Part shown: positions 18,364 through 22,805 of the stretch, one piece after another | Numbering within the stretch: the first letter of the stretch is position 1 | Layout of the letters: every line of letters starts with the position of its first letter | Origin: Thermoplasmata archaeon | GTDB lineage: Archaea > Thermoplasmatota > Thermoplasmata > Thermoplasmatales > GCA-001856825 | Length of the DNA stretch: 64,000 bases | Reading direction: 5' to 3' | NCBI GenBank assembly: GCA_021797855.1 | Contig: JAJZYX010000001.1 | Coordinates: 124,001-188,000 of the forward strand | Position numbers and translations under genes: made by a program | The notes under the pieces: model-generated | Databases searched by the model: none | Told to the model about the DNA's origin: nothing | What the model saw: the letters and a program-made list of their open reading frames with translations, nothing else

Positions 18364-18569
18364 CAGAAGATCACGAGTTGCTGCGCGAGCTCAAGAGATA
18401 TGGCGAGGAGATAATATTCTCCGAGGAGAGGAAAAGGATGATGCTGCTGAGCGAACTATGGGACAATTCAAAGTCAAAGCTGATGGAAGATATATCAAAA
18501 AAATACGGGATAGACAGCAGGCAAAAATTTCAGGAGTTCAAGGAAAAGTACAATCTCACCGACTATTGA
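18360..18569 (+). CDS. Uncharacterised small charged protein, last gene of the nuo transcript
   Basis: A 69-aa protein rich in Glu and Lys, predicted helical, without cysteines or membrane segments. ATG 18360 overlaps the preceding stop (ATGA). The last 14 nt overlap the 3' end of a zinc-ribbon gene on the other strand. A longer reading frame in another phase across 18317-18700 is a shadow. No function is assigned; the operon position suggests a link to complex I. Confidence 0.6.
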   Translation: MTEDHELLRELKRYGEEIIFSEERKRMMLLSELWDNSKSKLMEDISKKYGIDSRQKFQEFKEKYNLTDY

Positions 18570-18756
18570 ATGTTTCAAGTGGCCTTACGTTCTTATCGCA
18601 GCTAATCTTCCTCGCTGCCTTCATGTTGCTTTCCATCCAGGTATCAAGATCGCTCTCGCCTCTGAGCCTTATTCTCCTGATCTCCCAGAGACAGTTGTAA
18701 CAGTATAATCCAGAAACAACGACGCTACCGCATATCAGACAGTGGGAAGAAGCCAT
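18556..18756 (-). CDS. Small zinc-ribbon protein
   Basis: A 66-aa protein with C6-x2-C9 and C19-x2-C22, a compact zinc-ribbon knuckle pair, followed by an Arg/Lys-rich helical tail. Its ATG at 18756 lies about 27 nt from the centre of a TATA element, so it fits a leaderless gene. The end overlaps the end of the nuo transcript by 14 nt (tail to tail). A nucleic-acid- or protein-binding role is likely from the fold only; no named family was recognised. Confidence 0.6.
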   Translation of the reverse strand: MASSHCLICGSVVVSGLYCYNCLWEIRRIRLRGESDLDTWMESNMKAARKISCDKNVRPLETFNSR

Positions 18757-20335: not shown

Positions 20336-20396
20336 AGCTATTCCTTTATCACAACAAAATAGTTAAATATTGTCTGATTAGGTGTCTGAATCCTCA

Positions 20397-21191
20397 ATGG
20401 AAGTTGAAGTTAAAAAACTTGAGGGATGGTTCGAAAAACAGAGGCTCATGAAGATCCTGAAGAGCGACTACGATAACTTCTACATGCTCTTCGACCTAGA
20501 TAACTTCAATTTCCTGCTTGGGAACAGTTCATTTTTATATGTCAAGACGAATAATGAGATCACTGGAGTTCTGCTGAACTACTATCATTCTACTGGTATC
20601 AAGGACATTTGGGTGTACGGAGATAACGGATCAGTCAAGACGCTACTGTCCTATGTTGACAAGAGCACGTCTGTCATACATCTTAGATTCAACAACAACC
20701 TTGAATTATTCAAGGATGCACCTAACATTTACGGGGAGTACTGCATGGTACACGAGAGACCCCGTGGAAAACGTGACGAAAATGTGAAGCTACTGACGCA
20801 GGACAGGTATGTGCAATATGGGAAGCTGATGTCACAGTGGGAAAACACAAGATTTAAAACTATGGACCTTGAGGAGTTCAGGGGCCTCCTCAATTACAGC
20901 ACTGTTTTTGGTTACTTCGTTGGAGAAGAGCTAGTAAGTGCAGCCACTCTAGGTGCTGTATGGAAGGACTGGTTTGTAATCTCGTCGGTTTTCACAGACC
21001 CTGCGCACAGAAACAAGGGATACGCCCAGAAGCTCATATCGTCAATGCTGGACCAGTACAGTAATCTAGATAAGGCCATACTCTTCGTAAACAAGAACAA
21101 TGCGCCTGCGATCAGGGCATATTCAAAATTGGGATTCAAACTGTTCTCTGAAGACCTTTGGGTGGATTACGGGACAGGCCTGGTGCCCTGA
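20397..21191 (+). CDS. GNAT-family N-acetyltransferase
   Basis: A 264-aa protein. The C-terminal part has the GNAT acetyl-CoA site: FVISSVFTDPAHRNKGYAQKL, with the R/Q-x-x-G-x-A/G loop (RNKGYA), then FVNKNNAPAIRAYSKLGF, the typical beta5-alpha4 end. The N-terminal half is a diverged GNAT-like or FR47-like region. ATG 20397 is preferred to GTG 20382 because a TTAAATAT element near 20366 puts the transcript start near 20392. The substrate is unknown. The end overlaps the Ta0938-like gene on the other strand by 25 nt. Confidence 0.8.
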   Translation: MEVEVKKLEGWFEKQRLMKILKSDYDNFYMLFDLDNFNFLLGNSSFLYVKTNNEITGVLLNYYHSTGIKDIWVYGDNGSVKTLLSYVDKSTSVIHLRFNNNLELFKDAPNIYGEYCMVHERPRGKRDENVKLLTQDRYVQYGKLMSQWENTRFKTMDLEEFRGLLNYSTVFGYFVGEELVSAATLGAVWKDWFVISSVFTDPAHRNKGYAQKLISSMLDQYSNLDKAILFVNKNNAPAIRAYSKLGFKLFSEDLWVDYGTGLVP

Positions 21192-21478
21192 CCCTTTACT
21201 CTGAATTCCGTTATCCTTCCATCTTCGTGCCTGAAGAAATATTCCAGTCTGCTGTTCCCGCTGGTGGCGACACATTCCCTCCCTTTCGAATAATTACCGC
21301 TAATAGATACTGAATCGACCTTCTTCCATCCAGTTTCCTTCTCCACTCTTTTGATCATATTTTCGAATGCGTCCGCACAGATGGAACAGCAGAAAAACAT
21401 GTTATCACCCTCAATCTCTCTCCAGTAGTCGCCCCACGTCGCATCGCAGAGAGCACAGCCATCATAGTTCCTTTTCAT
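21167..21478 (-). CDS. Ta0938-like zinc-binding protein
   Basis: A 103-aa protein with C8-x2-C11, C30-C31 and C34 in an arrangement expected for a treble-clef/zinc-ribbon site; CALCDATWG and FFCCSICADAFENM are the core motifs. I recognise it as resembling Thermoplasma Ta0938, a structurally studied protein of unknown function. ATG 21478 is chosen, with GAGGGGGAG upstream; a start at 21505 would lie deeper in the upstream gene. It overlaps that gene by 17 nt, so the two are translated from one transcript. Confidence 0.72.
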   Translation of the reverse strand: MKRNYDGCALCDATWGDYWREIEGDNMFFCCSICADAFENMIKRVEKETGWKKVDSVSISGNYSKGRECVATSGNSRLEYFFRHEDGRITEFRVKGQGTRPVP

Positions 21479-22358
21479 ACATTCTCCCCCTCTCATATCT
21501 GGCATTTAGATAATCGTAAAAATAGTCCGCGGACCTCAGGAAATATGACTGAACTTCTGTTCCCATTTCATATTCCGTAGCGTATTTGTCAATCAACCGG
21601 AGCGCATCACCTGAATGGTACTGGTCTGCATAGTAACCGGCCATCAGAAACCTCGCAGTCTCCTTAGAAACCTCACCTTCAAGTATCTCGTGCCTGAAAT
21701 ATGCATATTTGGCCCCGTACTGTTTCACATTCCTATCTGCGATAAGTTCCAGGGAATGCATAGAAACCATTGCATCGAGCCAGTGTGCTGAACTGCTTAC
21801 TTTATTCAAGAAATTTAGTTCTTTAACTGTCGCAGGAAGTGGGTGGGAGGAGATTACCCTATCCCTCTTAAGCCCTACAGACTCACCCATCCTGAGTAGG
21901 AGTTCGAAGTGCGGCGGCTGGCCATTTAGCCCGAAATATTCCTCTGAAATATTGTCAAATTCGAACTTTTGTACCTCGAAGAAATCGGTCCGTGCGATGA
22001 TAAACGCACAAGACTTGACCCATTGTTGCAGGAAGTGATAGTGTTCTGTAACGTATCCCATTATGGTGTACTTGGTCGGATGCTGCATTTCCAAAACAAA
22101 TATGTTTGGGTTATCAGAAAAGAACCGTTCTACAAACCTCTTCTTTATCCACGCGGATAACCCTCCAGAAGAGGCGTCGTAGTATTCTTCAAGTTTCTTG
22201 GTCAGGATGTCTAACGGAACTCTTTCTTTTGATATTTCGCGATTCAGCCACATAATGTGTTTGGAGTCGCTAATCTTGGCCTTCGAGTAGAAGTGTGATG
22301 ACATAGTGGAAATTTCATTGTCTGGAAACTCTTCTTCACATACAGGGCAAATATTCAT
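21462..22358 (-). CDS. Zinc-finger protein with a haem-oxygenase/TENA/PqqC-like helical domain
   Basis: A 298-aa protein. The N-terminus has C4-x2-C7 and H22, a likely partial zinc finger. Residues about 95-290 look like the all-helical PqqC/TenA/haem-oxygenase-like fold: YVTEHYHFLQQWVKSCAFIIAR (trimmed core E105, H108), a HFELLLRMGESVGL stretch (E152), HSLELIAD (E204), YFRHE (H223) and DQYH (D245, H248). These could ligate a di-iron site, but the clean HxxxDxxH of the oxidase subfamily is not present, so the enzymatic role is open. It forms a transcription unit with the Ta0938-like gene and has an AT-rich promoter near 22390. Confidence 0.62.
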   Translation of the reverse strand: MNICPVCEEEFPDNEISTMSSHFYSKAKISDSKHIMWLNREISKERVPLDILTKKLEEYYDASSGGLSAWIKKRFVERFFSDNPNIFVLEMQHPTKYTIMGYVTEHYHFLQQWVKSCAFIIARTDFFEVQKFEFDNISEEYFGLNGQPPHFELLLRMGESVGLKRDRVISSHPLPATVKELNFLNKVSSSAHWLDAMVSMHSLELIADRNVKQYGAKYAYFRHEILEGEVSKETARFLMAGYYADQYHSGDALRLIDKYATEYEMGTEVQSYFLRSADYFYDYLNARYERGRMYEKEL

Positions 22359-22507: not shown

Positions 22508-22592
22508 GCGGAGGTTGCCGAGCCAGGTCAAAGGTGGCAGATTTAGGGTCTGCTCCCGAAGGGGTTCGCCGGTTCGAATCCGGCCCTCCGCA
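22508..22592 (+). tRNA. tRNA-Leu (anticodon TAG)
   Basis: Cloverleaf of 85 nt: acceptor GCGGAGG pairs with CCTCCGC followed by A73; anticodon stem GCAGA/TCTGC closes the loop TTTAGGG with anticodon TAG; a long variable arm (class II, TCCCGAAGGGG region) and the T arm GCCGG-TTCGAAT-CCGGC are present. No intron and no encoded CCA are seen. Confidence 0.97.
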
Positions 22593-22805
22593 CTGTAGCC
22601 TATAGATCGATGGTAGACTGCATTTATTTATCCTTTACTCAGGTCAGCCTGAAGTTTAGAGAATACCCTTCATTGACGAGCTTAAAATAGGACCTAACTG
22701 TTTCTTCTAATCTAACGCGACAACTGCAAGGGAAGTGGAAGAACTTAGGACAAATTCCTCCTTAAATCTAGGGGAAACTCGGCTTTAACGAGAAGAACGG
22801 GAGCC

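Follow-up and report, generated by a model that had tools for sequence, protein, structure and literature searches.

Two overlapping genes in the genome of a Thermoplasmata archaeon code for proteins of known families which, judged by their sequences, appear to form one conserved archaeal module with a variant of the metal site of the haem-oxygenase-like dimetal oxidases (HDOs). They lie in a stretch of 64,000 nucleotides (nt), here called the window, from contig JAJZYX010000001.1 of GenBank assembly GCA_021797855.1 (positions 124,001 to 188,000). The larger gene encodes an N-terminal zinc finger joined to a haem-oxygenase-fold domain (hereafter zfHO, or the enzyme), the smaller a protein of the Ta0938 family, and the two almost certainly constitute one functional unit. 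With slightly less than even confidence, this archaeal unit is read as a metalloenzyme of the haem-oxygenase fold that activates O2, with Ta0938 as its metal-handling partner.

The pair lies on the minus strand, and the limits (21167 to 22358) and the overlap of 17 nt that an earlier sequence-only reading had given for it are exact. The zinc finger which the same reading saw at the N-terminus of the larger protein scores well above the cut-off of zf-C2H2_9 (PF16293, residues 1-60, E = 4e-20, 71.9 bits against a curated cut-off of 29); residues 87-289 match TENA_THI-4/PQQC (PF03070, E = 2e-25), and zfHO also exceeds the cut-off of Haem_oxygenas_2 (PF14518, E = 2e-14). The smaller gene belongs to PF11494 (E = 2.5e-42, 143.6 bits against a curated cut-off of 27), and its product matches the nuclear magnetic resonance structure 2fqh (E = 4.8e-22) of Thermoplasma acidophilum Ta0938, a protein of the same family with the same five cysteines, whose structure was solved alone. 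An alternative in-frame ATG at 21505 would lengthen the overlap from 17 to 44 nt; the ATG at 21478 is taken as the start because the open frames of relatives (e.g., L007, L008 and L011) begin at the equivalent methionine. The window protein has a short C-terminal extension, absent from most aligned relatives, where its gene overlaps a convergent GNAT gene (20382-21191) tail to tail by 25 nt (21167-21191).

With respect to the distribution of the pair, a class sample of 200 evenly chosen genomes, including the window's own, contains 31 genomes with a Ta0938 match above the cut-off, each of which has the enzyme gene immediately before Ta0938 and on the same strand (this count leaves out G019, with a Ta0938 match below the cut-off and no enzyme match). 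In addition, a pattern scan of GTDB contigs with alignment A3 returned 107 relatives, the best 80 of which were kept as the 80 loci referred to below. They come from Thermoplasmata, Sulfolobales, Caldisphaera, Nitrososphaerales, Bathyarchaeota and others, and every one of them has a Ta0938 frame directly downstream of the enzyme (profile-match gap -34 to +69 nt), gene adjacency being absent from the scan patterns. Finally, within a Sulfolobales-order sample of 59 genomes the pair is adjacent in five of five Ta0938-positive genomes, one of which is the centre genome G200, chosen because the pair is present there. The genes are thus adjacent by more than chance and not scattered, as the sequence-only reading had assumed in calling them a coupled pair, and since this adjacency is met again and again in distantly related archaea, the pair very probably works as one unit. 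No relative was found in the viral contigs set that would point to a viral origin.

Conversely, 39 genomes of the class sample have an enzyme match, and eight of these have no Ta0938 match above the cut-off: two are ligand-poor paralogues (G143 and G166, see below), one is the fused frame of G073 (see below), and five are partial matches with E-values of 6e-6 to 9e-4 (G182, G186, G032, G108 and G193). Two observations weigh against the reading proposed above. Genus g5, of which four genomes were sampled, has the pair in G082 and G138 and lacks it in G043 and G075, and since some close relatives do without the pair, it is dispensable in at least one genus. Moreover, G260 carries a second Ta0938 copy without an adjoining enzyme (L151:1739-1999), about 7.7 kb from its pair. 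As to the spread of the enzyme, the G082 and G138 proteins (L055 and L056) come from the window's order but are placed in the tree next to Sulfolobales rows, apart from the rest of that order, a position that would suit a transfer between lineages, the support of this fork being just 80/83. A short enzyme fragment with an internal stop in G217 (C2:215067-215279), a genome with no Ta0938 match, is probably a decayed copy.

The finger residues C4 and C7 are found in 79 and H22 and H34 in all of the 80 loci. The class sample yields 33 matches to PF16293, and 30 of them fall in frames that have the enzyme's length and place; the others are in G179, G083 and G073. In G179, of family f25, the finger is missing from the enzyme and is encoded instead by a separate gene of 60 codons, the ATG of which overlaps the stop codon of Ta0938. 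G083, also a member of f25, has the finger at a contig end and a Ta0938 frame that reaches the end of a different contig, an arrangement that is compatible with the gene order of G179 without demonstrating it. In family f13, three members with the pair (G021, G101 and G127) show no match to PF16293. The enzymes that lack a fused finger group together in a clade (support 100/100) that diverges deeply from all others, so that the pairing is old. Separately from these, G073 has a single frame of 293 residues (L148:1080-1958) in which the finger is joined to a portion of the enzyme and to the C-terminal half of Ta0938; most enzyme ligand positions and the Ta0938 cysteines are gone from this frame, which is either a fused remnant or an assembly fault.

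The AlphaFold2 model of zfHO (pLDDT, the predicted local distance difference test, 94.9) and its comparison with 4lqx, TenA, CADD and PqqC bear out the PqqC/TenA-like helical fold that had been expected from the sequence. By far the best structural match is 4lqx, the protein SSO2700 of Saccharolobus solfataricus (Z 39.7, root mean square deviation 2.0 over 295 residues), which is 45% identical to zfHO and is found by phmmer with the window protein at E = 2e-83. SSO2700 and Ta0939 consist, like zfHO, of a zinc finger and a haem-oxygenase-fold domain; SSO2700 is known as a structure only, and a literature search for 4lqx and SSO2700, outside which most subscription papers lie, found no paper. 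Structural scores are lower for TenA (2gm8, Z 22.3), CADD (1rcw, Z 21.8 over 207 residues, root mean square deviation 2.4), PqqC (Z 20.6), HrmI (Z 19.6) and UndA (Z 19.3). By comparison of family profile A1 with the PDB, 4lqx is followed by 1rcw (E = 2.5e-9), 8va9 (E = 3.9e-9) and NePabS (9pj4, E = 2.9e-8), all three HDO-type p-aminobenzoate synthases, with PqqC at E = 0.02, and the CADD model TIGR04305 matches 24 of 28 enzyme members (best E = 1.2e-13). The nearest characterised relatives by profile are therefore the self-sacrificing p-aminobenzoate synthases among the HDOs. This placement depends on the family profile, and two results tell against it: when the window protein alone is used with phmmer, PqqC (E = 0.0015) ranks above CADD (E = 0.039), and by structure TenA ties with CADD.

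Of the two kinds of activity proposed by the sequence-only reading, an undescribed oxidase or hydrolase, the former is favoured by these O2-activating, HDO-type relatives, and the latter has found no support. Thiaminase II, the hydrolase of this fold represented by TenA, uses a catalytic cysteine, and the only cysteines conserved in at least 72 of the 80 loci are C4 and C7 of the zinc finger; since no cysteine of the enzyme domain reaches this level, a thiaminase route is unlikely.

Regarding the putative metal site, profile alignment to NePabS and to CADD, whose metal ligands we take to be residues 81, 88, 142, 174, 178 and 181, places E140, H150, E204, D245 and H248 of zfHO at five of the six HDO ligand positions. 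The HDO set comprises three histidines and three carboxylates, according to the accessible text of a 2026 review (PMC13108848). At the sixth position, the first histidine of the alpha-3 HxxxDxxH motif, zfHO has Gly241, so that five of the six canonical positions are occupied, and zfHO is better termed HDO-like, on the strength of the alignment, than filed as a canonical HDO. It resembles CADD, NePabS, UndA, HrmI and other HDOs in the fold and in these five positions, and differs from them in the glycine, the extra zinc finger, the dedicated Cys-rich partner and its archaeal origin.

Ten residues (E105, H106, E133, N136, E140, H150, H201, E204, D245 and H248) are found in all 80 loci, and the same ten are kept in the seven fingerless rows examined. 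The counts for E105, H106, H201 and E204 are partly due to selection, as the two scan patterns, either of which sufficed for a match, contain E105/H106 and H201/E204, respectively; E133, E140, H150, D245 and H248 are absent from the patterns. Of the histidine columns conserved in at least 72 of the 80 loci, only H106, H150, H201 and H248 are kept in the fingerless clade. The metal ligands that had been suspected from the sequence therefore have concrete candidates, aligned with HDO ligands and invariant in all loci. H201, which is invariant and lies one turn before E204, could replace the missing HDO histidine. That a metal is bound at this site is probable from the residue pattern, and chances seem evenly balanced that the site is dimetal and O2-activating. 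Apart from the glycine at the sixth position, NePabS weighs against the stronger form of this reading: it has a histidine at the position of H201 while keeping the canonical one, and because it has both, H201 may be a second-shell residue and the site may be occupied by a single metal or by none.

A comparison with paralogues is in line with a link between the partner and the site. Four genomes (G122, G133, G143 and G166) carry an enzyme paralogue without an adjoining Ta0938, G122 and G133 in addition to a normal pair. These paralogues keep C4, C7, H22 and H34 of the finger as well as E105 and E133, but have lost H106, N136, H150, H201 and D245 in all four copies, E140 in two and H248 in three, with E204 changed to Asp in three. 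The absence of the Ta0938 partner thus coincides with the loss of site residues. However, as the four form a single clade (support 100/100), this evidence might reflect just one event.

As for the partner, the Cys-rich site seen in the smaller protein by the sequence-only reading consists of five cysteines (C17, C20, C39, C40 and C43 as counted from ATG 21505, or 8, 11, 30, 31 and 34 as counted from ATG 21478) that are invariant in 27 of 27 aligned members and in all 80 loci. The model of the TRASH domain matches 21 of the 27 members, albeit weakly (best E = 4e-4, E up to 0.1). In these archaea, a role as metal chaperones has been proposed for proteins with this domain, CopM among them (PMC3595675). 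Ta0938 shares this weak match with the chaperones and sensors CopM and CopT, and differs from them in an added C-terminal beta half, in its gene context and in that the window protein scores 20.8 bits against a curated TRASH cut-off of 27, which tells against the assignment. The model of Ta0938 (pLDDT 78) has a helix after the cysteine site and a beta C-terminal half; a fold search with it was little informative, giving nothing below E = 0.3, and 2fqh was not among the matches listed. Ta0938 may tentatively be regarded as a metal loader rather than a structural or redox subunit. It is also conceivable, and we hold this with some reserve, that Ta0938 is a zinc-bound structural or electron-transfer subunit and that the pair forms a stable hetero-oligomer: structural zinc, too, is typically bound at invariant cysteines, and the model has a beta domain as its C-terminal half, whereas the weak TRASH similarity leans towards metal handling, none of this being decisive.

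An unlikely alternative for the enzyme itself is metal-independent chemistry, i.e., a cofactorless oxidation as in PqqC or the binding of a ligand, with the conserved acids and histidines serving as general acids and bases. PqqC and TenA have the same fold as zfHO (Z 20 to 22), and PqqC is the best characterised match of the window protein alone. However, the window protein reaches just 16.3 bits with the PqqC equivalog model TIGR02111, far below the cut-off of 240, on which grounds an identity with PqqC was rejected, and two clades that are deeply separated from each other both retain the five residues aligned with HDO ligands. Less probable still is a regulator, with the finger for nucleic-acid binding and the haem-oxygenase-fold domain for sensing a ligand or metal: the zinc finger is indeed of the C2H2 type, but there is only a single finger, some f13 and f25 enzymes lack it and yet retain the putative site, and no target-like gene is common to the loci, the small two-cysteine gene described below being found in one clade only. 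Least probable is that zfHO is an archaeal p-aminobenzoate synthase, supplying p-aminobenzoate for folate-like cofactors in the way that CADD and NePabS form it from their own Tyr and Lys side chains, for although CADD and NePabS are the nearest characterised relatives by profile, Y102 is present in 80 of 80 loci at what is, by hand count, the position of the NePabS Tyr41 named as essential (PMC11965152), and frames resembling gcvT, pdxT and glyA lie beyond the pair in seven of the 80 loci, the window protein reaches 27.2 bits against a TIGR04305 cut-off of 200, the pair is absent in some close relatives, the gcvT and glyA neighbours lie on the other strand and are confined to one group, and self-sacrificing synthesis is disfavoured because no lysine column is conserved in at least 72 of the 80 loci and because the fingerless clade has Leu or Val in place of Y102.

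In one clade the pair is accompanied by a further small gene. A profile built from a same-strand upstream family of 15 loci that does not overlap the pair detects, in 35 of the 80 loci (e.g., L098:7759-7974), a gene of about 70 codons that lies on the same strand just before the enzyme, and all 35 fall in one clade of 36 in the tree of the 80 enzymes (support 96/93), the contig of the 36th member (L075) starting inside the enzyme gene. Two cysteines three residues apart are present in 34 of 35 aligned rows (alignment A4), the exception being the frame-broken L121, whose row is partly out of frame as the gene is split there over two frames. Within the class sample the gene is present in five of 200 genomes (G044, G073, G117, G181 and G197) and adjoins the enzyme in all five, in G073 the fused remnant; the G073 copy is kept with one cysteine missing. 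The family is unnamed and is associated only with the enzyme in this sample, and searches of Pfam, NCBIfam and the PDB gave no convincing match for it. It is absent from the window and from the window's genome, which is 52% complete.

As the one proxy for a reaction of a dimetal site with O2, the pair tends to occur together with terminal oxidases: COX1 or cytochrome bd is present in 29 of 31 genomes with the pair and in 56 of 169 others (p = 1e-10, Fisher's exact test), a hand tally at the level of genera gives 18 of 20 versus 10 of 58, and COX1 is present in six of seven genomes outside the class that were reached through scan loci. This association is just a leaning because the clades are not independent and phylogeny confounds it, and two genomes with the pair, G044 and G117, both 94% complete, lack COX1 and bd, which tells against a use of O2.

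Taken as an O2-activating metalloenzyme with a metal-handling partner, the unit might work as follows. The helical core of zfHO would hold the metal site, most likely two iron (or iron and manganese) ions, built from E140, H150, E204, D245 and H248, with H201 plausibly replacing the histidine at the position of Gly241. In its reduced state the site would activate O2 for the oxidation of a small molecule or of a macromolecular residue. Ta0938 would bind metal through its five invariant cysteines in a TRASH-like finger and most likely dock on the enzyme, where it would fill the metal site or shield it; the zinc finger at the N-terminus may serve for docking or recognition, and the small two-cysteine protein would join the unit in one clade.

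Table 1. Positions in the window of the two genes of the pair, their domains and their predicted functional residues.
Feature	Positions	Strand	Basis
zfHO gene (zinc finger and haem-oxygenase-fold protein), 298 residues	21462..22358	-	PF16293, PF03070, PF14518; 4lqx; AlphaFold2
Ta0938-family gene, 103 residues from ATG 21478	21167..21478	-	PF11494; 2fqh; translation
Overlap of the zfHO and Ta0938 genes, 17 nt	21462..21478	-	Sequence reading
zfHO N-terminal C2H2 zinc finger, residues 1-60	22179..22358	-	PF16293; likely ligands C4, C7, H22, H34
zfHO haem-oxygenase-fold domain, residues 87-289	21492..22100	-	PF03070; fold matches
zfHO predicted metal ligands E140, H150, H201, E204, D245, H248	21615..21941	-	Profile alignment to 1rcw, 9pj4
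Ta0938 cysteine site C17, C20, C39, C40, C43 (from ATG 21505)	21377..21457	-	Invariance in relatives

The other neighbours of the pair are limited to certain clades. A dehydrogenase-like family occurs in at most 11 loci and in scattered places, and the window's own neighbours (GNAT, polyprenyl synthase and UbiX-like) are common to just seven or eight loci. Genes resembling flavin reductases, extradiol dioxygenases and amidohydrolases are found only in G238 and G248 among seven Sulfolobales-type loci and in none of the 80 scan loci. Frames overlapping the pair were considered as shared genes and rejected as shadows. On the other strand, immediately upstream of the pair, there is a tRNA-Leu (anticodon TAG, 22508-22593), and a Cys-rich frame of 66 codons (18556-18756) beside the UbiX-like gene has a weak double-zinc-ribbon match (E = 0.07).

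The description of the pair as undescribed holds in part. Both families are in Pfam, the structures 4lqx and 2fqh have been solved, and Ta0938 and Ta0939 (as 'PQQC') are listed consecutively among proteins mainly common to Thermoplasmata and Sulfolobus in the accessible text of a 2007 paper (PMC1852104). This listing was the only one found by a literature search for Ta0938 and Ta0939, and searches for a zinc-finger TenA protein or for PqqC-like proteins together with Sulfolobus found no paper, and among the titles listed by a further search none was on these proteins, most subscription papers lying outside these searches. As far as its accessible text goes, the 2026 review places the HDO superfamily in bacterial species, calls its metal clusters labile and counts about a dozen members that have been characterised; its main text never uses the word 'archaea' (PMC13108848). 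What is new here is that members of known families appear, from their sequences, to form one conserved module with a variant HDO metal site, and that in one clade the unnamed small protein joins it.

This module is kept across Thermoplasmatota, Sulfolobales and Nitrososphaerota, and in one clade the absence of the partner tracks the loss of ligands. A shared function would thereby be given to two orphan structural entries, and an unnamed small family travelling along with them is added. A bolder and rather doubtful possibility is that these enzymes are an archaeal branch of the O2-activating dimetal enzymes of the haem-oxygenase fold with rewired ligands, the third histidine having moved from alpha-3 to one turn before the ligand Glu, and with an assembly kit of their own, made up of a TRASH-like protein for metal loading, the zinc-finger module and the small two-cysteine protein of one clade. 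No other HDO-like enzyme known to us would then have dedicated partner proteins of this kind. As the proteins are small and template structures exist, the module offers a concrete test of how HDO-type sites are assembled and, if this last reading is true, the dedicated partners would explain how labile metal sites stay filled in these archaea.

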